IMG/VR virus record: IMGVR_UViG_3300031974_002598
Span: 1 to 46,877 of that record
Length of the DNA stretch: 46,877 bases
Origin: a virus
Reading direction: 5' to 3' (one strand)
Shown here: positions 9,811-42,654 of the stretch, piece by piece
Position numbering within the stretch: the first letter of the stretch is position 1
Layout: each line of letters starts with the position of its first letter
Notes under the pieces: generated by a model
The model's database searches: none
What the model was told of the DNA's origin: nothing
The model's input: only the letters and a program-made list of their open reading frames with translations
Translations under genes and position numbers: made by a program

Positions 9811-9815
9811 GAATT

Positions 9816-28187: not shown

Positions 28188-30947
28188 ATGGCAACAGCAA
28201 TTCAGAGAAGACGCGGTACTACGGCACAACACGCCAACTTTACCGGTCTTGCTGGTGAAATTACTATCGATACCACCCTTGATACGATCATTGTACATGA
28301 TGGATCTACTGCTGGCGGCATACGCCTTGCAAAATATTCCGAAGTGCAGGCGGCATCCGAAGGTGATATTACAGCAGTAAATACCAATGCAGGATCAGGT
28401 TTAACAGGCGGTTCAACTACTGGTGCGGCTAACATAGCAATCGACTATGAAAACTTAACAGGTAACCTGGTACCAAGTGCTAATAACACTTACAGTTTAG
28501 GTAGCCTAACAAACGTGTGGAAGGACGTATACATTGGTCCTGGTTCACTATACGTTAACGGATCAAAAGTTATTGAAGACAGTTCAGGTACTATTCAGTT
28601 CACTGCTGATACAAACCAGAACATCAGTATCTTAACAACTGGTACAGGTGACATTGAATTAACAACAGGCGGTGACATTCAGTTAAAATCAAATGTTGTT
28701 TTAACATCAGGTAAAGTTATCACTACAGCAGGTGGTGGTGCAACCAAGTTTACATCTAATGTAAACCTTAACAGTAATTACATTAACAATTTGGGTAATC
28801 CAGTTTCGGCACAAGACGGTGCTACTAAAGCATACGTTGATGGTGCTACCTACATTACTGGTGGTGACGGTATAGATAACACATCAGGTACTATAGCAGT
28901 TGACAGCACAGTTGTTAGAACAACTGGCGCCCAAACTATTGCAGGTGCTAAAACATTTAGTGACGATGCAGTATTCAGTGGTAACTTAACAGTTAGTGGT
29001 ACGCAAACAGTTGTTAATTCTACAGTAACATCTTTAGCAGACAACATCATTGAACTCAACAGAGATGCAAGTGGTGCTCCAAGTGAGAACGCAGGTTTAA
29101 CTGTTAACCGTGGTTCAAGTGCTGACGTTACTTTACAATGGAATGAAACTTCAGATGTATGGCAGTTTACCAATGATGGTTCAACATACCAAAACATGCT
29201 AACAGACTCAACTGCTAGAGCATTGCTTAGTGCAGGTGGTGATTTAAGTTACAACAATTCAACTGGTGTAATAAGTTTCACAGAGCGTACAGACTCTGAA
29301 GTACGCGGTTTAATCAGTGTAACAGACTCAGGTGGTGACGGTTCTTTAGCATATAACTCAGGAACAGGTGTTATTACTTACACAGGTCCAAGTGCTAGTG
29401 AAGTAAGAGCTCACTTTAGTGCTGGCACAGGTGTTGCTTATGATAGCGGAACAGGTGTTATTTCACTTGCTGATACTGGATTAATTTCAGGTGTTACTGC
29501 TGGTTCAGGTTTAACTGGCGGCGGTACAGATGGTAACGTAACAGTTAATGTTGGCGCAGGTACAGGTATCACAGTGGCGGCTGACAGTGTTGCAGTTAAC
29601 ATGGGTGCATTTGATACTGATGATTTAGCAGAAGGTTCAAGTAACTTGTATTTCACAAATACAAGAGCACAAACCCAAGCAAACGTTGCTATTGGTAACA
29701 ATACTACTGACAACGTAGCAGAAGGTTCTAGTAACTTATACTATACAGATGCTAGAGCTAGATCAGCAATCAGCGTTTCAGGAGACTTGAGTTATAACAG
29801 TACAACTGGTGTTATCAGTTTTACTAATGATGCAGGTGACATTGAAAGTGTTACTGCTGGTACTGGTTTAACAGGTGGTGGCGCATCAGGTGCTGTTACT
29901 TTAAGTATAGACAACACAGGCGTAACAGCGGCAACTTATGGTGACGCTGACAGTGTTGGACAATTTACAGTTAATGCACAAGGACAAATAACATCAGCAA
30001 GCAGTGTTGATATTAGCATTGCGGCTTCACAAGTTAGTAGTGGTACATTAGCAAGTGCTAGACTCCCAGACTTAGTGGTTGGTGATTTTGCTGATGCGGC
30101 AGTCCAAACAAGTGCTGAAGCATTTAGTGATTCAGACACAGTGTTGATGACAGCGGCGGCAGTTGCTGACAAGATCGAAAGTTATGGTTACTCAACTACA
30201 ACTGGTGATATTACAGGTGTTACAGCAGGTACTGGTTTAAGTGGTGGCGGTTCCAGTGGTTCAGTTACACTTAACGTAAGTGGTTTAACAGTATCAGAAT
30301 TTGCAGGTGGTTCTATAACAACAAGTGCAGAATCGTTTGCAGATAATGACACAACGTTAATGACTTCAGCGGCTATTGCTGACAAGATCGAAAGTTATGG
30401 TTACACAACACAAGTAGGTGATATTACTGGTGTTACAGCAGGTACCAACTTAAATGGTGGTGGTACTTCAGGTGCTGTAACAGTTAACCTGGATACTACA
30501 TTAACAGGTATGGCGGCGGCTACATTCAGTGGCACAGTAACAGCAGGCTTGTTTAGTGGTACAGCAACAAGTGCACGATACGCTGACTTGGCAGAAAAAT
30601 ATGCAACAGATGCAGAACTTGAAGCAGGCACAGTTGTTTGCTTTGGCGGTGATGCAGAAGTTACAGCATGTGACCACGAAGCAGATCACAGAGTAGCAGG
30701 TGTTATCTCAACTGATCCAGCATACATGATGAACGCAGATGCAAACGGTCAGTATGTTGCATTAACAGGAAGGGTTCCATGTAAAGTTACAGGCCCAGTT
30801 GCTAAAGGTGACTTACTGGTAAGCTCAAGTGTTGCAGGTCATGCAAAAGCAGATAACAATGCAGGCCCAGGTAGAATAATTGGTAAAGCAATTGGTTCTT
30901 CAGAAGGTGGCGAAGCAGTTATTGAAGTACTTGTTAACATGATGTAA
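28188..30947 (+). CDS. Fibre/adhesin-like virion protein, paralogue of 21272-25249
   Basis: 919 residues. The N-terminus is the widespread phage fibre attachment type (IQRRRGTTAQHANFTGLAGE, then IIVHDGSTAGGIRLA). The shaft repeats GLTGGG-type, EGSSNLYYTDARA and SYNSTTGVISFTND units. The C-terminal ~170 residues (ARYADLAEKYAT, DHRVAGVISTDPAYMMNADA, GRVPCKVTGPVAKGD) are closely similar to those of the 1325-residue protein, while the N-termini differ. So the pair has a common C-terminal module on different anchors. An intrinsic terminator follows. Confidence 0.8.
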   Translation: MATAIQRRRGTTAQHANFTGLAGEITIDTTLDTIIVHDGSTAGGIRLAKYSEVQAASEGDITAVNTNAGSGLTGGSTTGAANIAIDYENLTGNLVPSANNTYSLGSLTNVWKDVYIGPGSLYVNGSKVIEDSSGTIQFTADTNQNISILTTGTGDIELTTGGDIQLKSNVVLTSGKVITTAGGGATKFTSNVNLNSNYINNLGNPVSAQDGATKAYVDGATYITGGDGIDNTSGTIAVDSTVVRTTGAQTIAGAKTFSDDAVFSGNLTVSGTQTVVNSTVTSLADNIIELNRDASGAPSENAGLTVNRGSSADVTLQWNETSDVWQFTNDGSTYQNMLTDSTARALLSAGGDLSYNNSTGVISFTERTDSEVRGLISVTDSGGDGSLAYNSGTGVITYTGPSASEVRAHFSAGTGVAYDSGTGVISLADTGLISGVTAGSGLTGGGTDGNVTVNVGAGTGITVAADSVAVNMGAFDTDDLAEGSSNLYFTNTRAQTQANVAIGNNTTDNVAEGSSNLYYTDARARSAISVSGDLSYNSTTGVISFTNDAGDIESVTAGTGLTGGGASGAVTLSIDNTGVTAATYGDADSVGQFTVNAQGQITSASSVDISIAASQVSSGTLASARLPDLVVGDFADAAVQTSAEAFSDSDTVLMTAAAVADKIESYGYSTTTGDITGVTAGTGLSGGGSSGSVTLNVSGLTVSEFAGGSITTSAESFADNDTTLMTSAAIADKIESYGYTTQVGDITGVTAGTNLNGGGTSGAVTVNLDTTLTGMAAATFSGTVTAGLFSGTATSARYADLAEKYATDAELEAGTVVCFGGDAEVTACDHEADHRVAGVISTDPAYMMNADANGQYVALTGRVPCKVTGPVAKGDLLVSSSVAGHAKADNNAGPGRIIGKAIGSSEGGEAVIEVLVNMM

Positions 30948-30979: not shown

Positions 30980-31008
30980 AAGGGGTCTTTTTAGGCCCCT
31001 TTTTTTTT
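30980..31008 (+). terminator. Intrinsic terminator after the fibre genes
   Basis: 8-bp stem AAGGGGTC (30980-30987) / GGCCCCTT (30994-31001), six-base loop and a T-run to 31008. Separates the structural genes from the curli cassette. Confidence 0.9.
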
Positions 31009-31019
31009 GATCTTAAACC

Positions 31020-31028
31020 GATAAATAC
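31020..31028 (+). promoter_or_regulatory. Late promoter of the curli-like cassette
   Basis: GATAAATAC directly after the terminator and 79 bases before the first ATG (31107). It has the same nonamer as the portal and baseplate promoters. No other strong promoter or terminator is visible before 36443, so it probably drives the whole csg-like operon. Confidence 0.75.
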
Positions 31029-31106
31029 CTGTGTAGGTAAAATTTACAAACATATACACATAACAGTACACACTTCATTTATAGACTAACAGAGGTGAGT
31101 ATCACT

Positions 31107-31403
31107 ATGACAGAAATTTTTGAATTAATAGCCGATGTCGGCGCACCCATTGCAGGTTCTATTGTCATGGGTTTCTTTATCTTTTTAGTCATTAAACAAA
31201 TAATGGAAGGAATTGTAGACCAGGTTAAAACTCTGACTATGTTTTGCAAAAGTTTAGAAGCAAGAGCAAGTACTATGAGTAACGAAATGATGAAAATAGA
31301 TTTGTTAGTCAGTAGTGCATTAGAGCTACGTCCTGACACAGAACGTATTTCACGTGCAGAAAATTTTGTCGAAGACGGCAAAGTGGATGCTAGGAGAGAT
31401 TAG
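31107..31403 (+). CDS. Small membrane/coiled-coil protein A (curli operon first gene)
   Basis: 98 residues from ATG 31107, chosen over the GTG at 31095 because AGAGGTGAG is well spaced before the ATG. One transmembrane helix (about residues 10-35, PIAGSIVMGFFIFLVIKQIM) is followed by a long charged helix. It is similar to the next gene: both have 'I.D.G.PI', one membrane helix, then 'ID.L...V...LE.R'. The pair looks like a duplication. It could be a holin-like or an inner-membrane partner of the secretion channel. Function unknown. Confidence 0.75.
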   Translation: MTEIFELIADVGAPIAGSIVMGFFIFLVIKQIMEGIVDQVKTLTMFCKSLEARASTMSNEMMKIDLLVSSALELRPDTERISRAENFVEDGKVDARRD

Positions 31404-31750
31404 TGGACGAAGTAACCGGAGTAGCACAACTTATAAGTGATTATGGATTTCCTATAGTCATGATGGTAGGACTGGGTTATTTTGTGTATTTTATTTGGAA
31501 TTTTATTGGAGAACACATAGACCCAGCATTAGAAGAAATGCATATAGCATTAATAAGGGTTATAGATAAAACCCGTATGCTGGATCAAGACATGATCAGA
31601 CTACAGCAAAAAGTAAATGTGGTATTAGAGTATAGAGCTAAAGAAAAAATTATTAAGCAAGCAGAACAGCAAAAACTGATTGATGAGCTGAAAGCAAAAA
31701 ATAAACCTTTAGGCAGTGCAGTAATACCCAAGGAGAGTAAAACAAAATGA
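31403..31750 (+). CDS. Small membrane/coiled-coil protein B (paralogue of A)
   Basis: 115 residues, GTG start at 31403 overlapping the upstream stop, with AGGAGAG upstream. N-terminal membrane helix (YGFPIVMMVGLGYFVYFIWN), then a helical domain with LDQDMIRLQQKVNVVLEYRA and a lysine-rich tail. Overlaps the CsgF gene by four bases (ATGA). Its coupling to csgF suggests a role with the channel, but a holin/antiholin pair with gene A is an equally open possibility. Confidence 0.75.
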   Translation: MDEVTGVAQLISDYGFPIVMMVGLGYFVYFIWNFIGEHIDPALEEMHIALIRVIDKTRMLDQDMIRLQQKVNVVLEYRAKEKIIKQAEQQKLIDELKAKNKPLGSAVIPKESKTK

Positions 31751-32292
31751 TGACAGACAAAGACTGGGCATTATTAAAAAGCCAAATAGGTCCTCACATT
31801 TGGACCGGTACAGATTTATTTAAAGCATTTGCGTTTGGATTGTTTTTAGGATTATTATTCATGAGTCCTTTAGCATTAGCAGACCAATTGACTCACAAGT
31901 TTAAAAATCCAAGTTTTAGTGGCGTAGGCACAGGCGCACATTACTTGACAATCGAAAACCAAGAAAAAAGTCGTAAAGACAAAATTAAGGACGATATAGA
32001 AGCGGCACTTAAAGCGGCACAAAGAGAGGAAGAAAACTCAACTCTTAATAAGTTCTTGAGAAACTTGGAAAGCAGAATTTACAGTCAGATATCTAAACAG
32101 TTAGTAGACAGTATGTTTGGTAACGAAGAAGGTGCTGACTACGGTGTGTTTACTATTGAAGGTAACACTGTAACATATGAAAGATTAATTGGCGAAGACG
32201 GTATAGAAATCATTCGCTTGATGATTGTTGCAGAAGACGGATCAACAACAACTATTGATATTCCAGTTGGTGTAGGAAATTTAGGCGGCTAA
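31747..32292 (+). CDS. csgF: CsgF-like curli assembly factor
   Basis: 181 residues. A 25-residue charged N-terminal segment precedes a hydrophobic signal (LFKAFAFGLFLGLLFMSPLALA) with probable cleavage after A45. The mature protein begins DQLTHKFKNPSFSGVGTGAH, matching the start of bacterial CsgF ('FxNPxFGG...'). In CsgF this segment enters the CsgG barrel and forms the second constriction. The C-terminal domain (SKQLVDSMFG, then YERLIGEDGIEIIRLMIVAE and TTIDIPVG) also follows the CsgF plan, which ends in a small beta domain. The long n-region is unusual. It overlaps csgG by one base. Confidence 0.88.
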   Translation: MMTDKDWALLKSQIGPHIWTGTDLFKAFAFGLFLGLLFMSPLALADQLTHKFKNPSFSGVGTGAHYLTIENQEKSRKDKIKDDIEAALKAAQREEENSTLNKFLRNLESRIYSQISKQLVDSMFGNEEGADYGVFTIEGNTVTYERLIGEDGIEIIRLMIVAEDGSTTTIDIPVGVGNLGG

Positions 32293-33185
32293 TGAAGAAC
32301 GGAATACTAGCAATTTTGCTTGCAATACTAACGTCTGGATGTGCTAGTTTGGCAGTACCAGGAAACAAAATGACTGGCGATTGGTGCTGGGACGCCACTA
32401 TGGAATGTATAGAGCCACCAAAGCAAGTAGAATTACCTACATATGAACAATTAAGAAAACTACCACCAGCAGAGCAACAGCCAGTGGTAGCAGTATATAG
32501 TTTTGGCGATTTAACCGGACAAAGAAAACAAGGTGATCAACCACTTTACAGTACAGCAGTTACTCAAGGTGCAAAGGAACTGCTAATAGATGCACTCAAA
32601 GCGGCAGGAGCAGGAGATACTGGAAACGGTACCTGGTTCCGAGTAGTTGAAAGAGGAATCAGTTTGGATAGTTTAATTCGAGAGAGACAAATTATTCGAA
32701 GCACCAGAGAAGACTATTCAAAAGTAACTGGAGAAGAACAACCAGAATTACAACCAATGTTGTTTGCTGGTATGTTATTTGAGGGAGGAATAGTTGGATA
32801 TGACACAAACGTAGAAACAGGCGGACTTGGTGCCAGATACTTGGGTATAGGTGGTACAAGTCAATACAGAAGAGACAGTGTAGTTGTTTCGCTTCGTGCT
32901 GTAAGCACACTAACAGGCGAGATTATACTTAATGTACAAACATACAAGACTATTTTATCAGTTGGCCTAGCAGGCGATGTATTCAGATTTGTCGACATGG
33001 ATACAAAACTTATTGAGATGGAAACTGGTATGACACAAAACGAAAGTGTAACATGGGCGGTTCGGTCAGCAATTGAAGCGGCTGTGTTGGCACTTATTGA
33101 ACAAGGCGATCAGAGAGGTTACTGGAATATAGATTATCCGGACGCGGATGATGTTCTAACTGATTTGATTGACCTAGACGATTAA
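32292..33185 (+). CDS. csgG: CsgG curli secretion channel lipoprotein
   Basis: 297 residues. Lipobox LTSGC with lipidated C17. The CsgG domain is unmistakable: VVAVYSFGDLTGQRK, YSTAVTQGAKELLIDAL, WFRVVERGISLDSLIRERQI, GGIVGYDTNVETGGLGARYL, GIGGTSQYRRD and QTYKTILSVGLAGDVFRFVD. CsgG forms a nonameric 36-strand outer-membrane pore that exports curlin subunits. Compared with my recollection of E. coli CsgG, constriction residues Y51, N55 and F56 correspond to G, L and Y here (segment QGDQPLYSTAV). Full length, no truncation. Located in a late-transcribed phage operon between CsgF and a curlin-like substrate. Confidence 0.96.
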   Translation: MKNGILAILLAILTSGCASLAVPGNKMTGDWCWDATMECIEPPKQVELPTYEQLRKLPPAEQQPVVAVYSFGDLTGQRKQGDQPLYSTAVTQGAKELLIDALKAAGAGDTGNGTWFRVVERGISLDSLIRERQIIRSTREDYSKVTGEEQPELQPMLFAGMLFEGGIVGYDTNVETGGLGARYLGIGGTSQYRRDSVVVSLRAVSTLTGEIILNVQTYKTILSVGLAGDVFRFVDMDTKLIEMETGMTQNESVTWAVRSAIEAAVLALIEQGDQRGYWNIDYPDADDVLTDLIDLDD

Positions 33186-33207
33186 TATGCATATTATAGG
33201 AGAAAAA

Positions 33208-33930
33208 ATGAATGCGAAGAGTTTACTTACCAGTGCCTTCGCGGTTGTTTGTTTAGGTATGAGCAGTATAGTGTTCGCTCAGAGCACCACAGACAATGAA
33301 ATACTCATCGAACAGGTGGGTGATACATTAAACCTTACAATTAACCAACAAGGTTATGGTAATAAAATATCAGGAGATAGTACACAGAGTACAGATCTTG
33401 TTATTACTGGGGCAACTCTAAATATCGATTTAGATCAAATTGGTAATAGCAATAAGTTTTATGGACCTATTACAGCAGACAGTTTTACTATGGATTGGAC
33501 ATTTACTGGTGACAGTAATATTTGGGACAATTTAATTGGTAGTACTGGTAGTGCTGATAGTGGCGACATTTTAGTAGATGTCACAGGTGATAGTAACACA
33601 TTTGATTTTGATCTAGCAAGTGTAACCAGTGCTGAGAGATTAGACATGGACTTTACACTTTTAGGTTCAAGTAATGTGTTTGATATCGACATCGAAGTAG
33701 ATGACGCAACATGGAACTTTGATATAACAGGCGATAGTAATAATTTCTTAACCAGTCAAACAGACGGTGCTTACCATTTCATGAAAGTTATTCATGATGG
33801 TGATAACGGAGACTTTGATTTAATTCAAAGTTCAGGTACATGTCCTACAGGTGTAACAAGTTGTTACAGTCACATTGATTTGGATATAGATAGTGAAAAC
33901 GCAACTGTACAAATTACTGTTACTGACTAG
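33208..33930 (+). CDS. Curlin-like secreted protein 1
   Basis: 240 residues from ATG 33208, preceded by TAGGAGAA; the ATG at 33187 lacks this site. Signal peptide with cleavage VFA/QST after residue 24. The mature part has degenerate curlin-type repeats built on Gly-x-x/Ser-Asn turns: QQGYGNKI, DQIGNSNKFYG, FTGDSNIW, VTGDSNTF, LLGSSNVF and ITGDSNNF, spaced about 22-34 residues apart with hydrophobic alternation between. This is the pattern of CsgA/CsgB amyloid subunits. It is highly acidic and low in basic residues. Two cysteines near the C-terminus (TCPTGVTSCYS) could form a disulfide. Probable CsgG substrate. Confidence 0.75.
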   Translation: MNAKSLLTSAFAVVCLGMSSIVFAQSTTDNEILIEQVGDTLNLTINQQGYGNKISGDSTQSTDLVITGATLNIDLDQIGNSNKFYGPITADSFTMDWTFTGDSNIWDNLIGSTGSADSGDILVDVTGDSNTFDFDLASVTSAERLDMDFTLLGSSNVFDIDIEVDDATWNFDITGDSNNFLTSQTDGAYHFMKVIHDGDNGDFDLIQSSGTCPTGVTSCYSHIDLDIDSENATVQITVTD

Positions 33931-35062
33931 TATTTTACAGGTTCAAATAAATGCCGCTGAGGCTCAAATTGGCGGCATTTTTGAACAAAGCGGTTCTGTA
34001 GGAGAAATTACCCGTGAAACAGGTGAGAGTATTCTAGCAGAACTTGAGGCCGGCATTGTTTCTATGGATGTAGTAGAAACTGAAAACGGCAGATTAAAAA
34101 TTCAATTTGTAGACGACACACAAGTTTCTATGACAGAACACACTGTAGTAGAAATAAACGAATATGTTTACGATCCCAATCCAAGCAACAGCAAAATGGC
34201 ACTTAACTTTGCACAAGGTACTGCAAGATTCGCCACAGGTAAATTAGGATTAGTACCCAGAGAAAATATACAAATACAAACACCCACAGCGGCAATCGGT
34301 ATTAGGGGAACAGACTTTACAATGACTGTGGACGAATTAGGCAGAAGTTTAGTAATACTGTTGCCAGATGCAGATTGTAATGACGCAAAAAAATTAGAAG
34401 AAGGCTGTTTACCGAGCGGAAGTATTAGTGTAACAAATCAAGGTGGTACACAAATACTCGACGAAGCATATCAAGCAGTTATGGTTAGCACTGCAGAAAC
34501 ACCACCCACAACACCGGTGACCATAGAAAATTTAGATTTAAACATGATTGACAACATGTTTATTGTGAGCCAGCCAGGCGAAGTACAAGAGGCAGTAGCG
34601 GAACAGGAAGCAGAAAATCAGGGTGTGGATTTGTTGGCGTTCGGAGATTTAGACATCGACTTTTTGGAAGAAAATTTATTGCAGGAAAATTTAGAAGATT
34701 TACAGTTTTCAGAATTAGACATTGATTATTTAGGTGTGGATTTATTGGCAAACTTTCTAGATGTAATAGATACAAGTCTAGATATGGATCCTGTTGGACA
34801 AGACAAACAGGACCAAGGTCCTGATAAAATAACAGGTACACTCAATCCTGGTTATGATCCTGTTACCATGTATAACACACTGCTAGACAACAGTGAATAC
34901 ATTTGGTTTTTAAGGGTAGTAGATGGACAAGGCCGTATATCAATCAAAATACCAGTAGGCGGTAACGCCAGAATTGAAAGTGAAACAGAAGGGACGCCGA
35001 GCATTATTTGTGTCAACGATTGTTCGGACATAAATATATACATAAGGCAGACACAGGGATAA
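33893..35062 (+). CDS. FecR-domain periplasmic protein
   Basis: 389 residues from GTG 33893. This start overlaps the curlin gene by 38 bases, but it encodes a convincing signal peptide (MKTQLYKLLLLTSILQ..., cleavage after AAEA, residue 24). The FecR domain covers about residues 35-135: GEITRETGES, LKIQFVDDTQVSMTEHTVV, ALNFAQGTARFATGKLG and IQTPTAAIGIRGTDF. The C-terminal half is acidic, with repeated 'DIDFLEENLLQENLEDL' segments, and ends in a small cysteine-containing domain (CVNDCSDINIYI). Soluble FecR-domain proteins often occur near CHASE2-type cyclases; one is encoded 5.5 kb downstream. Role as sensor or anchor for the curlins is inferred. Confidence 0.85.
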   Translation: MKTQLYKLLLLTSILQVQINAAEAQIGGIFEQSGSVGEITRETGESILAELEAGIVSMDVVETENGRLKIQFVDDTQVSMTEHTVVEINEYVYDPNPSNSKMALNFAQGTARFATGKLGLVPRENIQIQTPTAAIGIRGTDFTMTVDELGRSLVILLPDADCNDAKKLEEGCLPSGSISVTNQGGTQILDEAYQAVMVSTAETPPTTPVTIENLDLNMIDNMFIVSQPGEVQEAVAEQEAENQGVDLLAFGDLDIDFLEENLLQENLEDLQFSELDIDYLGVDLLANFLDVIDTSLDMDPVGQDKQDQGPDKITGTLNPGYDPVTMYNTLLDNSEYIWFLRVVDGQGRISIKIPVGGNARIESETEGTPSIICVNDCSDINIYIRQTQG

Positions 35063-35063
35063 C

Positions 35064-35924
35064 ATGAATATAGAAGAAAAATTAAAAAACATGAAACCAA
35101 GTGATACTCCATTGCTATGGCTTGGCTATACCTTATTGGGCATGATGTTGTTGTTAGGACAACCAGCAAATGCTCAAAGTGCCACAGACAATGTTATTAA
35201 TATCAGCAATCCTGTTAGTGCAGACAATTTAAATCTCGACATACAACAAGCCGGCTACGATAATGAAATCACATTAAGTATTGGCGGCTCATCAAACACC
35301 CTTGACATTTATCAATTGGGTGCAAAAAACACTACCAAGTATACAGACACATGGGGCTCAGGATATGACTGGGGCGGAGATTTAGCAGGCAACAACAATG
35401 ATATCACAGTAAAGCAATACACTGATACCAGCAAAAGTATCTCAGATAACTTTTTCGGCTTCCACATACAGGGCAATAACAACAATGTGTTAGTTGGGCA
35501 GGAATGGTACATAAATGATCAAGGTGTTTACAATACTAATCCTGGAAATGGCTGGGGAGATCATTATTTGCGATTAGACATACATGGTGATTACAATGAT
35601 ATCATTCATACTCAAAGAACAGACAGTGCAAGTGATGGACAAACATCTTATGTGAATGTATATGCAGATTATAATGATGTGTATATACAACAAAGACAGG
35701 GTCAGCACTCGATGAACATGACCATCAATAATGATTACAATGAAGTTTGGTTTACTCAAGCAGGGCAACCAGCACACACTGCCACTGTAACACTTGGTGG
35801 TAATTATCCTACAACTCTTACCGTACAACAAGGAGTACATGCAACTTCAAGTTCACTAAATTACTCCCTTACACAAGATTGTCAAACAGCAGGAGGTTGC
35901 ACTGTAAGTGTAACGCAACAATAA
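35064..35924 (+). CDS. Curlin-like secreted protein 2
   Basis: 286 residues. A long n-region (residues 1-18) precedes a hydrophobic signal with cleavage after PANA, residue 37. Repeats are of the curlin type: QQAGYDNEITLSIGGSSNTL, YQLGAKNT, DLAGNNNDITVKQY, IQGNNNNVLVGQE, IHGDYNDIIHTQ, VYADYNDVYIQQ, INNDYNEVWFTQAG and LTVQQG, with the Q/N ladder typical of CsgB/CsgA. It is richer in Gln, Asn, Tyr and Trp than curlin 1 and so is the better amyloid candidate. Starts two bases after the FecR stop; likely CsgG substrate. Confidence 0.82.
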   Translation: MNIEEKLKNMKPSDTPLLWLGYTLLGMMLLLGQPANAQSATDNVINISNPVSADNLNLDIQQAGYDNEITLSIGGSSNTLDIYQLGAKNTTKYTDTWGSGYDWGGDLAGNNNDITVKQYTDTSKSISDNFFGFHIQGNNNNVLVGQEWYINDQGVYNTNPGNGWGDHYLRLDIHGDYNDIIHTQRTDSASDGQTSYVNVYADYNDVYIQQRQGQHSMNMTINNDYNEVWFTQAGQPAHTATVTLGGNYPTTLTVQQGVHATSSSLNYSLTQDCQTAGGCTVSVTQQ

Positions 35925-36196
35925 TGGAATGTCCTGAAGGTTTAATTTGCTACACAGAAGAAGAATACGAAGAACTTCTTACTGTGATGGAAGAGCATGG
36001 TATCTTTGGTGACGAATTAGCAGAACTTGCTCAACCCGCAATGGGTGACGCAGAAGCAGTAGCAAACTTTACTTGGGAATTGTTGTTTCTCACACCCTGG
36101 GAACTAGCATACATAGCAATACCAATGAGTGTGTTAGCCACATACGGTTTAACTATCTACTTTGCGTATAAGTGGATTCAAAAGAAGTTTTCCTGA
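35924..36196 (+). CDS. Small acidic protein with C-terminal membrane helix
   Basis: 90 residues. ATG at 35924 overlaps the curlin stop by one base. An acidic N-terminal half (EEEYEELLTVMEEHGIFGDE) is followed by a membrane segment (about residues 58-83, ELAYIAIPMSVLATYGLTIYFAY) and a basic tail KWIQKKFS. Predicted single-pass inner-membrane protein with N-outside/C-inside topology by the positive-inside rule. Not recognised. Coupled to the curlin operon. Confidence 0.65.
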   Translation: MECPEGLICYTEEEYEELLTVMEEHGIFGDELAELAQPAMGDAEAVANFTWELLFLTPWELAYIAIPMSVLATYGLTIYFAYKWIQKKFS

Positions 36197-36197
36197 C

Positions 36198-36443
36198 ATG
36201 GGTTATACAGAAGCAGTATTAGTTTTAATACTGAGTACATCATCTGGCGAAATATTAGATAAACAAATTGTTAGATCATTTGTAAAAGATTGGCACTGCG
36301 TACAATTTTATTATGATCCTAAATATACTAGACCTTTACAACAACATGGCTTTGATTATTGGTTAGCAAATAAGGAATACGCACAACCAGGTTACACAAT
36401 CAGTTTTCAGTGTAAACATGTAGGCCCGTATTACACTGCATAA
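36198..36443 (+). CDS. Small protein of unknown function
   Basis: 81 residues from ATG 36198, just after the preceding stop; an in-frame upstream start at 36162 would overlap the previous gene. Composition is aromatic-rich (HCVQFYYDPKYTRPLQQHGF) with two cysteines, and no signal peptide or membrane span is clear. Reads like a small folded alpha/beta domain. Not recognised; last gene of the curli operon. Confidence 0.55.
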   Translation: MGYTEAVLVLILSTSSGEILDKQIVRSFVKDWHCVQFYYDPKYTRPLQQHGFDYWLANKEYAQPGYTISFQCKHVGPYYTA

Positions 36444-36465
36444 ATTAACAGAAAATTAATGTCGT

Positions 36466-36510
36466 TGTAACATAACCTTAACATTTCAAGCCCACTAAAA
36501 TCATAAATAT
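36466..36510 (+). promoter_or_regulatory. Direct-repeat box (Pho-box-like) and late promoter before the porin/transporter pair
   Basis: TGTAACA (36466-36472) and CTTAACA (36477-36483) are 7-mers in direct repeat with an 11-base period. A -10-like TAAAAT follows at 36496-36501, 12 bases later. This is the geometry of PhoB-type boxes (two 7-mers, four-base spacer, box in place of the -35). The late-like box CATAAATAT is at 36502-36510. The rest of the 207-base gap shows nothing I recognise. Downstream are a beta-barrel gene and a PiT-like transporter. The regulator is inferred. Confidence 0.35.
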
Positions 36511-36650
36511 ACTTGTAAAACATTAGACGTGAAGCCCACAAGGCATAGTACTGTTATTAATGTTTCACATATTAACACAATTAATATCAGAACGCAGACA
36601 CCATTAGGAAAAACTGTATTTCTGAACAACTAAACTTTTAGGAGTTCGAA

Positions 36651-37205
36651 ATGAAATCATTTCTAATTGGTCTCTGTGCTATAGTACTGACTATTCCTGC
36701 ATTCGCAGAGACCCCCTCAGAACAAGAATACAATTACAAAATCAAACAGGACGATTGGGAATACACTTTTCGTACCAGAGAAGATCGCTGGCATGTGGAA
36801 GTGGGCAACAAGGTAGGTCCTGTTGAAGTAATGTATAGATATGCAGATCAAGACGGTACCATAGAGAACCGTATTAAATTCACCACAGAGCTCTTTTCTT
36901 ACAAAGACCTTGTTACAGAAGGCAGAATGGAGTATCGTCATTTTGATAACAAAGAGTCACATTGGCGTTATCGTTTCATAGTAGAATACACTCCGCACAT
37001 TACAGGTAATCTTTATCTGTATGCGAAATGGCAACCTCGTTGGAGTTTTAAAGATGCTGGCACTAAGTTTGATGCCAGAGATCAATTGGGCATTACCTAT
37101 AAAGGTGATGGTTGGAAAATAACTCCTTTCATAGAACGCACTAGCACAGAGCACTATGAAAGAAAAATGACAGTGACAGGTATTCACTGGGAGGCTAAAA
37201 TATAA
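36651..37205 (+). CDS. Outer-membrane beta-barrel protein (KdgM-like porin possible)
   Basis: 184 residues. Signal peptide with cleavage AFA/ETPS after residue 19. The mature 165 residues alternate polar and aromatic/hydrophobic residues in about ten strands (WEYTFRTREDRWHVEVGNKV, PVEVMYRYADQDG, WRYRFIVEYTPHI, GNLYLYAKWQPRW, DQLGITYKGDGWKITPFIER). This is the signature of a small outer-membrane barrel similar in size and style to KdgM-type porins. The last residues (GIHWEAKI) do not end in aromatic F/W. SD is TAGGAGTT. Its stop overlaps the ATG of the PiT-like gene, so the two are probably made together. Confidence 0.65.
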   Translation: MKSFLIGLCAIVLTIPAFAETPSEQEYNYKIKQDDWEYTFRTREDRWHVEVGNKVGPVEVMYRYADQDGTIENRIKFTTELFSYKDLVTEGRMEYRHFDNKESHWRYRFIVEYTPHITGNLYLYAKWQPRWSFKDAGTKFDARDQLGITYKGDGWKITPFIERTSTEHYERKMTVTGIHWEAKI

Positions 37206-38149
37206 TGGATATGATGACTTTATTATGGACCGTGCTGGGCTTCAGCATGGCGTCATACACAGTTATCGCCAATGATAGTATCCAAACATTGGGCACATGG
37301 ATTCAATCCAACAAAGAAAAGTTTGATTGGAAAACCATGTGGCTGGGTGCAAGCAGTGTGTTACTGTTTGCATTGTGGTATGGATGGACTGTTAACGGTG
37401 GTGACATATCGTACGGTAGGCTAGATAGAATACCCTATATAGAACCACAATGGTATCACGCACTAGCACCAGGTGTGCTGTTAATACTGACTAGATTTGG
37501 TGTGCCAGTTAGCACATCGTTCTTAGTGTTAAGTGCATTTGCTAGTACCTTTGTGTTAGAAAAAATGCTGGTAAAAAGTTTTGCTGGCTACGGTGTTGCG
37601 GCTATTAGTGCCTATGCAATATGGGCAGTAATATCCAAATGGCTTAATAATGTACAACTGGGCGGCAGTGAGCGTAACTGGACTATTGCACAATGGACTG
37701 TTACTGGTTGGCTGTGGTGGACATGGTTAAGTCATGATATGGCTAACATGGCTGTGTTCTTGCCAAGAGAAGTTAGTGCAACAACACTAGCGGCTATTAG
37801 TGCATTGTTTATTGCTGGCATGGGTTTTATGTTCAGAGAACAAGGCGGCAAGATACAAGGTGTTGTTCAAAGCAAAACAGACACTAACTATGTTAAGAGT
37901 GCAACACTTATTGATTTAGTGTATCTGGTTATACTGTGGTACTTCAAACAGTACAACAACATACCAATGAGCACCACATGGGTGTTTATAGGTTTACTTA
38001 GTGGTAGAGAACTTGCTATTGCTACATTCCAAGGCGGATCAAAGAAACTGGAAGAAGTGTTTCCTGTGATTGCAGGAGACTTTGGTCGCTTGATGGTGGG
38101 TGTTGCGGCAAGCATGGGTATCATTATAGGTATTCATACACTTACCTGA
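37205..38149 (+). CDS. PiT/PHO4-like inner-membrane transporter
   Basis: 314 residues with about nine membrane helices. Two internal repeats each carry the paired PiT signatures. Repeat 1 has ANDSIQTLGT (near residue 23) and GVPVSTSFLVL; repeat 2 has SHDMANMAVFLPRE and NIPMSTTWVFIGLLSGRE. In the PiT family, 'GxND...' and 'P.ST' motifs line the phosphate/cation path. The protein is shorter than PitA (499) and the first motif lacks the usual 'GANDVAN' spelling, so substrate may differ. Coupled to an outer-membrane barrel, which suggests an uptake route across both membranes. A strong terminator follows. Confidence 0.6.
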   Translation: MDMMTLLWTVLGFSMASYTVIANDSIQTLGTWIQSNKEKFDWKTMWLGASSVLLFALWYGWTVNGGDISYGRLDRIPYIEPQWYHALAPGVLLILTRFGVPVSTSFLVLSAFASTFVLEKMLVKSFAGYGVAAISAYAIWAVISKWLNNVQLGGSERNWTIAQWTVTGWLWWTWLSHDMANMAVFLPREVSATTLAAISALFIAGMGFMFREQGGKIQGVVQSKTDTNYVKSATLIDLVYLVILWYFKQYNNIPMSTTWVFIGLLSGRELAIATFQGGSKKLEEVFPVIAGDFGRLMVGVAASMGIIIGIHTLT

Positions 38150-38150
38150 T

Positions 38151-38175
38151 AAATGGGGGCAATGCCCCCATTTTT
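38151..38175 (+). terminator. Strong intrinsic terminator after the transporter
   Basis: Perfect 10-bp stem AAATGGGGGC (38151-38160) / GCCCCCATTT (38164-38173), loop AAT and T-run to 38175. It also lies at the 3' end of the minus-strand genes below and could act in both directions. Confidence 0.9.
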
Positions 38176-38254
38176 ATACTAAAACTAGTTTAGTAATTTT
38201 ATCAATTCTTCCAGATTTCATCATCTTGTCGAATTTTTTAAAAAGTCTTTTCAT
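38174..38254 (-). CDS. 26-residue cationic peptide ORF
   Basis: ATG at 38254-38252 overlaps the stop of the upstream minus-strand gene as ATGA, with GGAGG eight bases upstream inside that gene. The peptide starts MKRLFKKFDKMMKSGRI and ends in KLVLV: seven Lys and two Arg against two Asp, and amphipathic if helical. The precise coupling and strong ribosome site argue that it is translated. Possible membrane-active or regulatory peptide; no homologue recognised. Confidence 0.5.
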   Translation of the reverse strand: MKRLFKKFDKMMKSGRIDKITKLVLV

Positions 38255-38550
38255 GTCATTTCCTCCAAGTCACGAAATTGACATGTCGTCCAACCTTCAG
38301 AATGGTGTAACTTAAAAGTTCGGTGAATGTTTTTGGGTAGTTCTACTTTGCGATATCGCCCTGTTGGGCACTCACGGTGTCGAACTATCTTGCCTTTGTA
38401 GACTGAACCATCTTGTAAATGAAAATAGATAGCAGTCTTACTCAGTGCAATTTGCTGTAAATCACTTCGCTTTATGTGATTGTCAGCCAATGCTGGTCCG
38501 CCTGTAAAGAGCAGGATCAACATGGCTACTATTCCTATTGGCTTCGCCAT
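38251..38550 (-). CDS. Small secreted periplasmic protein
   Basis: 99 residues from ATG 38550 (AAGGAG six bases upstream; two earlier in-frame ATGs lack a proper site). Signal peptide MAKPIGIVAMLILLFTGGPA, cleavage about LA/DNH at 22. The mature 77 residues contain two cysteines (HRECPTG and WTTCQF), likely a disulfide, and beta-like segments (TAIYFHLQDGSVYKGKIVRH). The only minus-strand gene, with its coupled peptide, inside the accessory block. It is not CsgE by eye. Function unknown. Confidence 0.65.
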   Translation of the reverse strand: MAKPIGIVAMLILLFTGGPALADNHIKRSDLQQIALSKTAIYFHLQDGSVYKGKIVRHRECPTGRYRKVELPKNIHRTFKLHHSEGWTTCQFRDLEEMT

Positions 38551-38580
38551 ATCCATCTCCTTATTGTTATGCAACTATTC

Positions 38581-38609
38581 TGCAACAGTAATGTTACAGT
38601 TTTGTTACA
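38581..38609. repeat. Triple 7-mer direct repeat with 11-base period (Pho-box-like)
   Basis: TGCAACA (38581), TGTTACA (38592) and TGTTACA (38603) are separated by four bases each. On the plus strand a -10-like TAAGAT (38621-38626) lies 11 bases beyond the last repeat. It lies in the divergent gap between 38550 (minus) and 38696 (plus). Related to the array at 36466-36483, which carries the reverse-complement 7-mer TGTAACA. Confidence 0.4.
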
Positions 38610-38659
38610 ATGTTATTTATTAAGATCGTATAAAGAATTAACAGAGTTGTGAATCTTTA

Positions 38660-38696
38660 TTGACAAAATCATACATTTCGTGTATTATATAATACA
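38660..38696 (+). promoter_or_regulatory. Sigma70 promoter overlapped by a 16-bp palindrome
   Basis: TTGACA (38660-38665), 17-base spacer and TATTAT (38683-38688). A perfect palindrome TGTATTATATAATACA (38681-38696) covers the -10 and the expected start site, as an operator for a dimeric repressor would. Drives the small membrane/lipoprotein genes from 38696. Confidence 0.7.
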
Positions 38697-38833
38697 TGAA
38701 ACATATGATAAAATGGCTTAAAATCTGTGCTATGTTACTCACAGTGCTGATAGCCATATCAATTATACAGTTAGCAGTTCACAGTATTGAAATAGGATAC
38801 GACCTCATGTATCACAGTGATGGACGACCCTAA
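38696..38833 (+). CDS. Small membrane peptide (possibly leaderless)
   Basis: 45 residues. ATG at 38696 lies where transcription from the promoter at 38660-38688 should begin, so the mRNA would be leaderless or use the second ATG at 38705. Sequence: basic N-terminus (KHMIKWLK), one hydrophobic helix (CAMLLTVLIAISIIQLAV), then an acidic/polar tail. Its 3' end overlaps the next gene by 14 bases. Confidence 0.5.
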   Translation: MKHMIKWLKICAMLLTVLIAISIIQLAVHSIEIGYDLMYHSDGRP

Positions 38834-39131
38834 CAAAATAGACGAACTGTTTAACAAATATATCACCCAACGACTTAGAGGCGGATTACATATTGCATAT
38901 GGTATGCTGTATGTACAAATCAGTCTAATATTCCCATACTTCTTTTATGTGACAATATGTTTAAGTGTCGTAGTCTATTACATATATCTCTGTGAAAAAT
39001 ATGGCTACATGATAGACCATTACACATTTGAAATGATAAGGATCAATGCACACCCAGACCCCGTATTTACTCCAATGCCAGCACCTGAATTCTTTGATCA
39101 TGCTGGCATAGTCGATAAATATATAATGTAG
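38820..39131 (+). CDS. Small two-span membrane protein
   Basis: 103 residues from ATG 38820. An N-terminal charged segment is followed by a hydrophobic region (GMLYVQISLIFPYFFYVTIC, then LSVVVYYIYL) that can form a hairpin of two membrane helices, and then a cytosolic tail with HPDPVFTPMPAPEFFDHAG. Not recognised. Lies in the same transcript as the preceding small peptide, ahead of a terminator-like hairpin. Confidence 0.6.
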   Translation: MDDPNKIDELFNKYITQRLRGGLHIAYGMLYVQISLIFPYFFYVTICLSVVVYYIYLCEKYGYMIDHYTFEMIRINAHPDPVFTPMPAPEFFDHAGIVDKYIM

Positions 39132-39144
39132 GCAAGAAGCCTAT

Positions 39145-39173
39145 AACAGTATAGCAGTTGGCTTACTGTTTTT
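39145..39173 (+). terminator. Probable intrinsic terminator
   Basis: Nested stem AACAGTA (39145-39151) with AGC inside, loop AGTTG, GCT, then TACTGTT (39164-39170) and a T-run. One bulged T in the stem. Confidence 0.6.
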
Positions 39174-39186
39174 ACAAGGAGAGAAT

Positions 39187-39462
39187 ATGAGAAGCATGCT
39201 CAGTATTCTTGCAGTCCTTGGTATATTTTTACTACCATCATGTGCCTCAGTTGGAGCAGTGATTGAAGGTGGTAAAGAATTTACTACAGGTGTAGTAGAT
39301 GGATCTGTTAAGGCGGTTTCAACAATAACCGGAGCCGTTTTAGAAGATGCATCTAACATCGTTGAAACAACAGCAGAAGTTACACAAGGTGTGGTGGAAA
39401 CTGTTGGTAATGAAATCGACGAGCAGACCGACGAACTGCAAGACGCTCCAAAAAAGGACTAA
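39187..39462 (+). CDS. Small acidic lipoprotein
   Basis: 91 residues. Lipobox LLPSC with lipidated C19 after a short signal (MRSMLSILAVLGIF). The mature part is a Val/Thr/Glu-rich helix or turn repeat (GVVDGSVKAVSTITGAVLED, TTAEVTQGVVETVGNEIDEQ) ending in PKKD. AAGGAGAG precedes the ATG. Small lipoproteins in phages can act in lysis (Rz1-like), superinfection exclusion or envelope anchoring; nothing here decides between these. It is not proline-rich like Rz1. Confidence 0.7.
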   Translation: MRSMLSILAVLGIFLLPSCASVGAVIEGGKEFTTGVVDGSVKAVSTITGAVLEDASNIVETTAEVTQGVVETVGNEIDEQTDELQDAPKKD

Positions 39463-39493
39463 GCCTGTTCTCCCGTCGCAAGGAGAGTAAGGC
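39463..39493 (+). other. Hairpin downstream of the lipoprotein gene
   Basis: GCCT/AGGC plus TCTCC (39469-39473) / GGAGA (39482-39486) with an internal bulge and loop CGTCGCAA. No T-run, so it is more likely an mRNA-stabilising or processing element than a terminator. It sequesters the AGGAGA sequence, which otherwise looks like a ribosome site. Confidence 0.4.
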
Positions 39494-39515
39494 CAGTAAT
39501 AGTGAGGATATTAAA

Positions 39516-39572
39516 ATGTTGATACAACAAATTAAAAAATATTGTACAACCAATCCTCAGGAGTGCGAATAA
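39516..39572 (+). CDS. 18-residue peptide ORF
   Basis: MLIQQIKKYCTTNPQECE, ATG 39516, GAGG about eight bases upstream. The stop codon abuts the ATG of the next gene, so translation may be coupled. Two cysteines. Could be a leader peptide for the downstream secreted protein rather than a functional product. Confidence 0.35.
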   Translation: MLIQQIKKYCTTNPQECE

Positions 39573-40076
39573 ATGAAAGCGGCAATGTTAATAGCATTGT
39601 CGCTTTTATCTTTTAGTGCATCAGCAAGTCTTTCCCAGCAACAAATACATGCTATACAAAATGGTTGGCATGCACCCTATAGTCAAAAAACAATAGATAG
39701 AGTATTACAACAAGATACTTTGATTACGTTTGATGATACTCCCAAATATACTATAGTCAATATAAAAACAGAACCTGCAAGTAAATTGCATTGGGCAACT
39801 TTTTGGACGTTGCAACTATTAGATATTTACACTACAAACAAAGGTATGCAATATGACTGTGTAACAGAACTCAACCCTTTACTACCTAAGAGACCCTCAT
39901 TGTTTAGACTTACTTTACACAAAGGTATGTTTTTAACCCCTCTAGTTTTATTAGATAAAGAACTGGCATTCACAGACGCTGAACTTATAAGTGGAACACT
40001 TATAACAGGTGGTGTAGTTGCAAGTAACTTTAACGTCATTAAAAACGCAAAACGCAAGTGTAACAAAATTAGATAA
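39573..40076 (+). CDS. Secreted/membrane protein, DUF5658-like
   Basis: 167 residues. Signal peptide with cleavage about ASA/SLSQ at residue 18. The middle region reads HWATFWTLQLLDIYTTNKGM and then TELNPLLPKRP, with LHKGMFLTPLVLL and a further hydrophobic segment. This 'LDxxTT...xELNPL' arrangement recalls the DUF5658-type small membrane proteins. The basic C-terminus (NAKRKCNKIR) should stay cytoplasmic. Function unknown. The last codons contain the late promoter for the next gene. Confidence 0.55.
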   Translation: MKAAMLIALSLLSFSASASLSQQQIHAIQNGWHAPYSQKTIDRVLQQDTLITFDDTPKYTIVNIKTEPASKLHWATFWTLQLLDIYTTNKGMQYDCVTELNPLLPKRPSLFRLTLHKGMFLTPLVLLDKELAFTDAELISGTLITGGVVASNFNVIKNAKRKCNKIR

Positions 40077-40080
40077 ATAT
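40072..40080 (+). promoter_or_regulatory. Late promoter within the end of the upstream gene
   Basis: GATAAATAT overlapping the stop codon of 39573-40076, 25 bases before ATG 40105. Confidence 0.6.
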
Positions 40081-40104
40081 CAGTGTAAGGTAGGAGTTAC
40101 ACAC

Positions 40105-40572: not shown

Positions 40573-40576
40573 ATAT
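40568..40576 (+). promoter_or_regulatory. Late-promoter-like box abutting the cyclase start
   Basis: CATAAATAT only five bases before ATG 40582. If used, transcription would begin at or after the cyclase start codon, so the cyclase is more likely read from 40072 or a promoter further up; the match may be fortuitous. Confidence 0.3.
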
Positions 40577-40581
40577 CTATT

Positions 40582-42654
40582 ATGAAATGGTTATACAGCG
40601 GCTGGGCCGTAGCAATTACAGTTTGTTTACTAACAGCACTTAGAGTAACAGACCCCACGCCTGTACAAAGTTTGCGTTCACAGACATTTGATTACTACCA
40701 ACAACTAGATGAAGTCAAACAAAGCAACGAAGTTGTAGTAATAAACATAGGCGAAAAGAGCCTACAACAATGGGGACAATGGCCTTGGCCCAGACAGAAC
40801 ATAGCACAATTGATATCCGACTTGAGAAACTCAAACGCAGGCATCATAGGTCTCAACGTGATGTTTCCGGAACCAGACAGATTTGGTGGCGACGAAGTAC
40901 TAGCCAGTTGGATGAACCAAAACGGCATAGTTTTAAGCCAGACCCCATCTTCCAGAGGCATAAAGAGTTCAGGCCCACATATTGGTACAGCCACAATAGG
41001 ACCAGCACCAGCGACTGATTATTTACTGACGTGGCCTAACCTAGTAACAAACATAGAACAATTAGAAAATGTAGCAGACGGTATAGGAGTAATTGCAAGT
41101 GCTCCGCAACCAGACAATCAGACCAGAACATATCCCTTGGCTGTTGGTGTAGAAGAAAAAATATACCCATCGTTTGCTATAGAACTACTCAGGGTATATA
41201 CTGGTAAGCCAAGTTATGTTCTGAAAACGTCTGAAATAGGTGTACAAGAGTTTGCTGTACCTCCTTTTGAACCTATTATAACACAGCCTGATGGAACAGC
41301 CTATATTCGTTTTAACAATACATTTGAAGAATACGAATATGTAGATGCGAGTAAACTGCCTGACTTAGGTGGAAAGTTCGTTATTGTGGGTGTAAGTGCA
41401 GAAGGTGTTGCCAATCCGGTACCCACACCGAGAGGCAACATATTACCACATTACATACAAGCCCATATGACGCAAAATTTTATTGACGGCAGTAACATTA
41501 CCCGTAATGAGTTATCAGCACTGATAGAGCTTCTGATAGCGTTCTTGAGTATGACATTGATAGCAATAGCAATATACAAGTTACCTGTGTGGGCAGGACT
41601 AGTAACTACAGTTACTATTATAGGCGGAATTGTATACTATAGTGTGCAGTCTTACACTGCCAATTTAGTTTTATTTGACGCAACATTTCCTGCATTAAGT
41701 GCGTTCTTGATATTCACACAAAGTTCATTTAATAACTTTTGGATACAATTTAAACTTAGACAGGAAATCCAAAAGCAGTTTGCAGGGTACTGCTCGCCTA
41801 CAGTTGTGCGTATGCTTCAACAAAACCCTGCACTGATCAAAGACGGTATGAAACGAGAGATCAGTATTTGCTTTAGTGACTTGCGTGGCTTTACTCCATT
41901 GGGAGAAAGTTTTGGCGATGATGTACAAGGATTAACAAAGTTAATGAACGGTTACATGGACGCAATCACACAACCTGTACTTGACGCAGACGGAATGATT
42001 ATCAAATATATTGGTGATGCCAGTATGCATGTACACAATGCACCTAACGATGATCCGCGTCATGCACACTCAGCAGTTATGACAGGACTAAACATGTTAT
42101 CAGCAGTGGAGGACTTTAATGAGAAAATTACTGCAGAAGGCAGACCACCCATTGGTATGGGGGCTGGCATTAATACTGGCTTGGGCTATCTTGGGGAAAT
42201 GGGTTCTACATCGAGACACTCCTATGACGTTCTGGGAGACGCTGTTAGCACAGCCGCAAGAATTGAATCAAAGTGTAAAGAGTACGGATGTTTATTACTT
42301 GTAGGCGAAAACACTTATAAAGAAACCTATGACGAGTTCTTTTATCTCAAAGTAGATGATTTGGCAGTAAAAGGCAAGAGTGTGGGCATTACAATATACA
42401 CAGTGTTAAGCACCTGGGACTATGCTTGGGAAAGCACTAACTGGCCCGCAATACAACCACAGCATGATAAAATGCATGAGTGCTATCGTAATCAAAGTTT
42501 TGATATGGCAATACATTTTTGCAAACAGCTCAAAGGCGAGTTTGATGGTAAAATGGATGCATATTATGACATGTGGATTGAACGTTGCGAGTTTCAGAAA
42601 ACACAAGACTTGCCTGAAGACTGGAATGGCGTATTCATAGCCACCAGTAAATAA
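40582..42654 (+). CDS. CHASE2-domain adenylyl cyclase (class III)
   Basis: 690 residues, full length. N-terminal membrane helix; periplasmic CHASE2 domain (about 25-310) with VVVINIGEKSLQQWGQWPWP and IGLNVMFPEPDRFGGDE; three membrane helices (about 315-395); class III cyclase domain (about 425-610); and a C-terminal TPR-like tail ending LPEDWNGVFIATSK. Catalytic residues: metal Asp D433 (FSDLRGF) and D479 (KYIGD), adenine-selecting pair K475 and D549 (YDVLGD), and transition-state Arg R560. The usual Asn of the 'VNxAxR' motif is Ser (S556, VSTAAR). Expected to make cAMP in response to a periplasmic signal. No good ribosome site is visible before the ATG. Confidence 0.92.
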   Translation: MKWLYSGWAVAITVCLLTALRVTDPTPVQSLRSQTFDYYQQLDEVKQSNEVVVINIGEKSLQQWGQWPWPRQNIAQLISDLRNSNAGIIGLNVMFPEPDRFGGDEVLASWMNQNGIVLSQTPSSRGIKSSGPHIGTATIGPAPATDYLLTWPNLVTNIEQLENVADGIGVIASAPQPDNQTRTYPLAVGVEEKIYPSFAIELLRVYTGKPSYVLKTSEIGVQEFAVPPFEPIITQPDGTAYIRFNNTFEEYEYVDASKLPDLGGKFVIVGVSAEGVANPVPTPRGNILPHYIQAHMTQNFIDGSNITRNELSALIELLIAFLSMTLIAIAIYKLPVWAGLVTTVTIIGGIVYYSVQSYTANLVLFDATFPALSAFLIFTQSSFNNFWIQFKLRQEIQKQFAGYCSPTVVRMLQQNPALIKDGMKREISICFSDLRGFTPLGESFGDDVQGLTKLMNGYMDAITQPVLDADGMIIKYIGDASMHVHNAPNDDPRHAHSAVMTGLNMLSAVEDFNEKITAEGRPPIGMGAGINTGLGYLGEMGSTSRHSYDVLGDAVSTAARIESKCKEYGCLLLVGENTYKETYDEFFYLKVDDLAVKGKSVGITIYTVLSTWDYAWESTNWPAIQPQHDKMHECYRNQSFDMAIHFCKQLKGEFDGKMDAYYDMWIERCEFQKTQDLPEDWNGVFIATSK

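Follow-up and report, generated by a model that had tools for sequence, protein, structure and literature searches.

The stretch of DNA considered here, which we call the window, comprises the 46,877 nucleotides of the virus record IMGVR_UViG_3300031974_002598, whose source assembly is an IMG/VR fragment of 46.9 kb. At 31107-35924 it contains a cassette related to the bacterial type VIII (curli) secretion systems, formed by the genes of two small membrane proteins (TM1 and TM2), the plug protein CsgF, the channel lipoprotein CsgG, a first curlin-like protein (Cur1), a FecR-domain protein and a second curlin-like protein (Cur2). All of them are on the + strand and follow each other with overlaps of 1-38 nt or short gaps (Table 1). 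An eighth member, encoding a CHASE2 protein with a class III cyclase domain, is parted from Cur2 by a variable insert. An earlier reading of the letters themselves (the sequence-only reading) had described a CsgG with a lipobox, a CsgF with a matching mature N-terminus, two curlin-type proteins with signal peptides and a FecR-domain protein within one tight operon, and all of these hold. TM1 and TM2 (31107-31750) and the cyclase (40582-42654), the latter outside the interval covered by that reading, are additions to it.

Table 1. Features of the cassette and its immediate surroundings, in window positions
Feature	Position	Strand	Basis
Intrinsic terminator	30980..31001	+	9-pair stem and T-run; strongest in regional scan
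Late-promoter-type motif GATAAATAC	31020..31028	+	ATAAATA placement and conservation ahead of TM1
TM1	31107..31403	+	about 98 aa; single hydrophobic segment, then coiled-coil-like region; phrog_18771
TM2	31403..31750	+	115 aa; paralogue-like to TM1; also phrog_18771
CsgF	31747..32292	+	signal peptide; CsgG-binding FKNPSFSG segment; Pfam CsgF 2e-14; PDB 6l7a alignment
CsgG, outer-membrane secretion channel lipoprotein	32292..33185	+	Pfam CsgG 1e-45; lipobox
Cur1, secreted curlin-like beta-solenoid protein (predicted)	33208..33930	+	family Curlin_rpt, NCBIfam, motif statistics, model
FecR-domain secreted protein (predicted), curlin-like C-terminal strand	33893..35062	+	Pfam 2.8e-11
Cur2, secreted curlin-like protein (predicted)	35064..35924	+	Pfam Curlin_rpt 1.3e-5, above cut-off
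Small protein o8	35924..36196	+	65-67% in L006, L009, L010; kept in part of jumbo clade
Small protein o9	36198..36443	+	68-81% in L006, L009, L010; kept in part of jumbo clade
CHASE2 and class III adenylate/guanylate cyclase	40582..42654	+	PF05226 1.6e-39, PF00211 1e-16; eighth cassette member

Phage lineage and late-type control

Judged by its portal protein and its CsgG, the window is a member of a separate lineage of jumbo T4-like phages, with contigs of 217-340 kb. The portal shares 64-73% identity with those of cassette-carrying contigs of up to 340 kb (one of these relatives, L124, is a 34.8-kb fragment), 53-54% with PA5oct and its relatives and 50% with Atu_ph07, which are the nearest named portals, and only 33-36% with HTVC008M, Melnitz and other pelagimyophage-type contigs. 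The CsgG tree also groups the jumbo contigs in one clade, apart from the CsgG of pelagimyophages; neither protein places the window with the SAR11 podophages or the pelagimyophages. By comparison with related phages, the virus is probably marine. Among 50,697 phage records, CsgG was matched only in HTVC008M, Melnitz and a 1.5-kb Salmonella contig, and therefore the named jumbo relatives lack a cassette CsgG. The Salmonella entry ('Salmonella phage S.Kent') is an unannotated fragment, probably of host DNA, and was excluded as evidence. Within the jumbo clade the site of the cassette is fixed, with the order fibre genes, cassette, cyclase, nudix gene and tail-sheath gene.

The cassette is divided from the preceding fibre gene (28188-30947) by the terminator that stands behind that gene, as had been proposed. 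A phage late promoter ahead of the cassette had been proposed as well, and the distribution of its core motif agrees with it. ATAAATA is found 16 times in the window, and 12 of these copies stand in sense orientation no more than 120 bp ahead of a gene, compared with 0.86 expected; moreover, the motif precedes TM1 in 19/19 jumbo-clade loci inspected. By count alone ATAAATAC is not enriched (5 vs 3), only its placement relative to genes being informative. The window also encodes a T4-type late sigma factor (phrog_12791, 5018-5899). Because of this placement, its conservation and the encoded sigma factor, expression of the cassette late in infection is well supported at the sequence level. Another copy of ATAAATA, at 35000-35006 within the FecR gene and 64 bp before Cur2, is a possible internal late promoter, and a further one is located 43 bp ahead of the cyclase gene.

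Channel, plug, substrates and proposed sensor genes

From their sequences, the identities of CsgG and CsgF are certain. The CsgG lipobox, LTSGC, occupies residues 13-17, and the protein aligns over its full length with the solved CsgG of Escherichia coli (phmmer, PDB 3x2r/4uv3, 1.8e-45). The mature N-terminus of CsgF, DQLTHKFKNPSFSG, aligns with the E. coli sequence GTMTFQFRNPNFGG, and the alignment covers exactly the segment (FKNPSFSG versus FRNPNFGG) that lines the CsgG barrel (PMC7304575). Mutation of F5, F7 or F12 in E. coli CsgF abolishes CsgG binding (PMC6957492); the window CsgF retains Phe at the positions of F7 and F12 and has His at that of F5. The motif F.[NS]P.F.G is present in 95 of 97 phage CsgF sequences.

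Both Cur1 and Cur2 carry Sec signal peptides. The Curlin_rpt family is matched by Cur2 itself and by 10/11 members of its family. Cur1 has no Pfam match of its own, and its assignment relies on its family (3/12 members match Curlin_rpt), on weak NCBIfam matches to CsgA (0.002) and CsgB (0.007) and on its repeats: in composition-preserving shuffles the strand motif Psi-x-Psi-x-Q, found 4 times, is expected 0.35 times (p=0.0002), and the turn motif G-x-[SNDG]-N, found 6 times, is expected 0.59 times (p<0.0002). Since the two proteins match curlin models, the idea that they are ordinary fibre proteins, which the sequence-only reading had named as its own possible undoing, fails. AlphaFold models built on 10-row alignments are all-beta past the signal peptide, with mean predicted local distance difference test (pLDDT) values of 74 for Cur1 and 73 for Cur2, and in VIA alignment they resemble beta-solenoids in general. 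The Cur1 model aligns with CsgA (8c50) with Z 16.8 over 190 residues and a root-mean-square deviation of 9.0, a tie with SufBD; CsgA does not appear in the structural match list of the Cur2 model. These predicted structures are consistent with a curlin identity and do not prove it. In one sub-clade, FecR and Cur2 are parted by an inserted protein of about 490-500 aa that matches nothing in Pfam (L011 12795-14294, L012 11911-13407, L013 4333-5808).

The FecR domain is certain from its sequence, and the gene starts with a GTG within the 3' end of Cur1. Its most peculiar trait is the C-terminus, which ends as h-x-h-x-Q-x(0-3) in 63/64 distinct phage proteins, compared with 0/73 bacterial FecR proteins and 19/1250 other open reading frames. 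Phage and bacterial curlins often share this ending, and the curlin consensus is N-x-Psi-x-Psi-x-Q (PMC10192328). The curlin-like strand suggests that FecR may be a client associated with the fibre. A role as an iron-citrate anti-sigma regulator, which would have a cytoplasmic anti-sigma part, a single transmembrane segment and fecI as neighbour, was considered and found no support: the FecR domain comes after a signal peptide and is of the exported kind, the partner is a cyclase instead, and the cassette has no sigma factor gene (fecI).

The origin of the FecR-cyclase association was approached through 73 bacterial FecR proteins gathered with the phage FecR profile. Many of them are encoded at most 8 kb from a CHASE2-type cyclase, in loci without any curli gene; the bacterial genomes checked have only 1-3 CHASE2 genes each. 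Five SAR11 single-cell genomes (L062, L073, L083, L088, L093) show this arrangement, so SAR11, a known host group of such phages, owns a version of the sensor pair. Thus, by gene neighbourhood, FecR and the CHASE2 cyclase form a bacterial pair independent of curli, and the phage cassette has the look of two bacterial units brought together, a csgF-csgG-curlin unit and a FecR-CHASE2-cyclase sensor, since each is found separately in bacteria.

The two leading genes were named histidine kinases (HK) by Wittmers et al. in 2022 (PMC9599517). We do not follow this assignment for TM1 and TM2, which at 98-115 aa contain a single hydrophobic segment and match no kinase family of Pfam or NCBIfam, neither DHp nor HATPase. 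TM2 has a weak match to the holin family phrog_4898 (0.0019). The TM1 frame is open from a GTG at 31095, and its relatives favour the ATG at 31107.

Other genes of the window deserve mention. The slot between Cur2 and the cyclase (35924-40582 in the window; also seen in L006, L009, L010 and L131) is variable in the jumbo clade, with about 0-6 kb of differing cargo. Besides o8 and o9, the window has there an exported protein that may resemble an outer-membrane barrel (36651-37205), followed by a multi-transmembrane protein (37205-38149); the cargo of L006 includes two exported proteins, of which one matches cytochrome c weakly. Far from the cassette, a protein of 1100 aa without convincing PHROGs or Pfam match lies between the baseplate hub and portal genes (11977-15279). 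At 8638-10241, adjoining SbcCD-like genes, there are a radical SAM protein and a second protein that matches an NAD-synthetase-labelled phage family as well as homing-endonuclease families.

Conservation and weighing of the explanations

Conservation was studied in 91 viral contigs, chosen because their CsgG resembles that of the window or of a few relatives; some are near-copies, meaning that the counts are not of independent events, and very different arrangements could escape such a sample. Wherever the flank suffices, the order TM1-TM2-CsgF-CsgG-Cur1-FecR-Cur2-cyclase is essentially invariant, and the genes are present in every locus: CsgF in 87/87, TM1 in 79/79, TM2 in 81/81, Cur1 in 82/82, FecR in 67/67 and Cur2 in 51/51. 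The cyclase is found in 38 of the 39 loci having at least 9.5 kb downstream. The ratio of nonsynonymous to synonymous substitution rates is about 0.04-0.2 for most cassette genes and highest for Cur2 (0.09-0.44), which by sequence comparison places all of them under purifying selection. Whole cassettes are also encountered in contigs binned to metagenome-assembled genomes from unrelated bacterial phyla, namely those of Saprospirales, Planctomycetes, Synechococcus, Flavobacteriaceae, Maricaulis and Pelagibacter (L021-L026, L057). We read these as mis-binned phage contigs rather than as bacterial curli, and they could mislead surveys of the latter.

We think, with a probability of roughly 0.6, that a jumbo T4-like lineage has here a fixed, phage-borne curli cassette, which brings substrates along with the secretion channel and serves to make a late fibre with a linked sensor. 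The proposal of the sequence-only reading that a virus with a T4-like genome supplies the curli channel together with substrates for it, in a late-type unit, is supported. Late in infection, CsgG would make a channel in the outer membrane, plugged from outside by CsgF, and through it Cur1 and Cur2 would be exported and fold into curli-like fibres of beta-solenoid type at the surface of the infected cell. FecR would probably be exported or docked with the fibre by means of its curlin-like C-terminal strand, and FecR and the CHASE2 cyclase may act as a sensing pair that alters cyclic AMP or cyclic GMP in response to the condition of the envelope or the fibre. The sequence-only reading had raised coating of the cell, a block to superinfection and clumping as possible uses of the fibres. 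The benefit might be a changed surface of the infected cell, which would hold back cells or virions or keep other phages out, a guess to which we give about an even chance. A bolder version, in which FecR is itself a curli client capped onto the phage-made fibre by its C-terminal strand and the amyloid on the cell surface is wired through the CHASE2 cyclase to a second-messenger switch setting late infection or lysis, seems doubtful to us.

Several observations speak against the fibre and its linked sensor. The constriction of CsgG is formed by Tyr51, Asn55 and Phe56 (PMC6957492); in the window the Phe56 position is Y and those of Tyr51 and Asn55 are G and L. No cassette protein matches CsgE in Pfam or NCBIfam, and CsgC is absent from the cassette. 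CsgE raises curli yield and is dispensable for the phenotype (PMC7029224), and for this reason it was not counted as a required feature. The confidence of the Cur1 and Cur2 models is only medium (pLDDT 73-74), and Foldseek searches with them gave no significant match. The full curlin motif, with Asn in register, is present in only 5/74 FecR ends, so the C-terminal strand is to be taken as a degenerate half-repeat; the C-terminal repeat of CsgB, implicated in CsgF binding, is likewise degenerate at the consensus Asn (PMC10192328). No clumping was seen in Melnitz-infected cultures (Buchholz et al., PMC9004378).

The cyclase adds a further difficulty. In class III cyclases an Asn is usually the catalytic, transition-state residue, and Asp binds the metal. 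The jumbo-clade enzymes retain the metal Asp and the KYIGD motif and have GDAVSTAAR, with Ser replacing the usual Asn, and because of this substitution their predicted activity is uncertain.

The closest competitor is the published proposal for Melnitz (PMC9004378), by which the CsgGF pore has taken on a new task, that of opening the outer membrane in a gated way to time lysis, as pinholins or secretins would, with the curlin-like genes as passengers. Late expression is compatible with lysis, and TM1 and TM2 are small, single-pass proteins with a weak holin-family match. However, no locus with sufficient flanking sequence lacks the substrate genes, on which purifying selection acts, the plug segment of CsgF is canonical, and the Melnitz record has two annotated curlin repeat proteins, contrary to the argument that substrates are missing. 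A pore-only, holin-like role is disfavoured because channel and substrates are co-inherited, and dispensable substrates should be lost somewhere; we consider it unlikely. The same obligatory Cur1, Cur2 and CsgF are left unexplained if the channel is an uptake pore admitting nutrients or cofactors into the infected cell, as proposed in PMC7029224 and PMC9599517. A CsgG without gating would leak, but FecR lacks a canonical anti-sigma context and has the cyclase as its partner instead, and we find this use of the channel quite improbable.

In the jumbo lineage the late-type cassette directly follows the tail-fibre genes, and beta-solenoids are frequent in tail fibres, so that Cur1 and Cur2 might be conceived as decorations of the virion or its tail. 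Virion proteins, however, need neither Sec signal peptides nor a dedicated outer-membrane channel, and in HTVC008M and Melnitz the cassette is located elsewhere, near the gene of a single-stranded DNA-binding protein; such decorations appear very improbable. Finally, the bacterial descent of CsgG, FecR and cyclase (PMC9599517) could raise the suspicion that host DNA was misassembled into the window at 31-36 kb, a concern of the sequence-only reading itself. The cassette occupies the same site, from fibre genes to nudix and tail-sheath genes and amid phage genes in conserved order, in about 20 contigs, some of more than 200 kb, with late motifs at the front of the cassette and a base composition equal to that of the flanks, which leaves practically no room for this artefact.

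Comparison with known curli systems

The curli module itself is not new, having been found before in phages that infect SAR11 and OM43 bacteria. It was described in HTVC008M and in pelagimyophages (Zaragoza-Solas et al. 2020, PMC7029224), and the order HK-CsgF-CsgG-CsgA/B-FecR-CsgA/B-AC was reported in podo- and myo-pelagiphages by Wittmers et al., together with metatranscriptomic expression and the global distribution of the module (PMC9599517). Hence, the suggestion of the sequence-only reading that complete sets, FecR and substrates included, were little described does not stand: exactly such sets are in that work, and HTVC008M and Melnitz carry them. The window has the same gene order as the pelagiphage module, from two small leading genes through to the cyclase, and differs from it in belonging to a jumbo T4-like phage with a CsgG in a separate clade and in having its cyclase set apart by the variable insert. 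Melnitz, a Methylophilales phage, has the same eight genes, whereas Buchholz et al. in 2022 treated its CsgGF as a pore without csgA/B (PMC9004378). In a literature search restricted to open-licence papers, no report of a curli module in jumbo phages was found. New points are the placement in a jumbo lineage, the tail of FecR, the bacterial pairing of FecR with CHASE2, the test of co-inheritance and the lack of a kinase domain in the leading genes; the curlin-like tail is common to the window and the published pelagiphage modules, and a description of it was not found in those papers. Phage-borne curli is thus widened from SAR11 and OM43 phages to a giant T4-like lineage, as a fixed, syntenic part of the genome. 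Besides, channel, plug and both substrates are inherited together almost without exception, which we take to speak against the published view of a pore acting alone.

With the bacterial systems, namely csgBAC/csgDEFG of E. coli and the alphaproteobacterial csgF-csgG-curlin loci, the phage cassette shares CsgG, CsgF, curlin-type substrates and a C-terminal curlin strand. It differs from them in being devoid of CsgE, CsgC and CsgD and in adding TM1/TM2, FecR and the CHASE2 cyclase, none of which was detected, at the sensitivity used, within about 8 kb of CsgG in five alphaproteobacterial loci. The sensor side has a bacterial parallel in the BiofilmReg operon of Burkholderia, which joins a LysM-FecR protein and a CHASE2 histidine kinase and whose disruption abolished biofilm formation (PMC5192318). 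In both cases an exported FecR-domain protein stands beside a CHASE2 membrane sensor, whereas the phage pair would give its output through a class III cyclase and comes linked with genes for curli secretion. In our opinion, the curlin-like FecR tail and its cyclase partner offer a testable idea for the constant presence of both genes in these phages.

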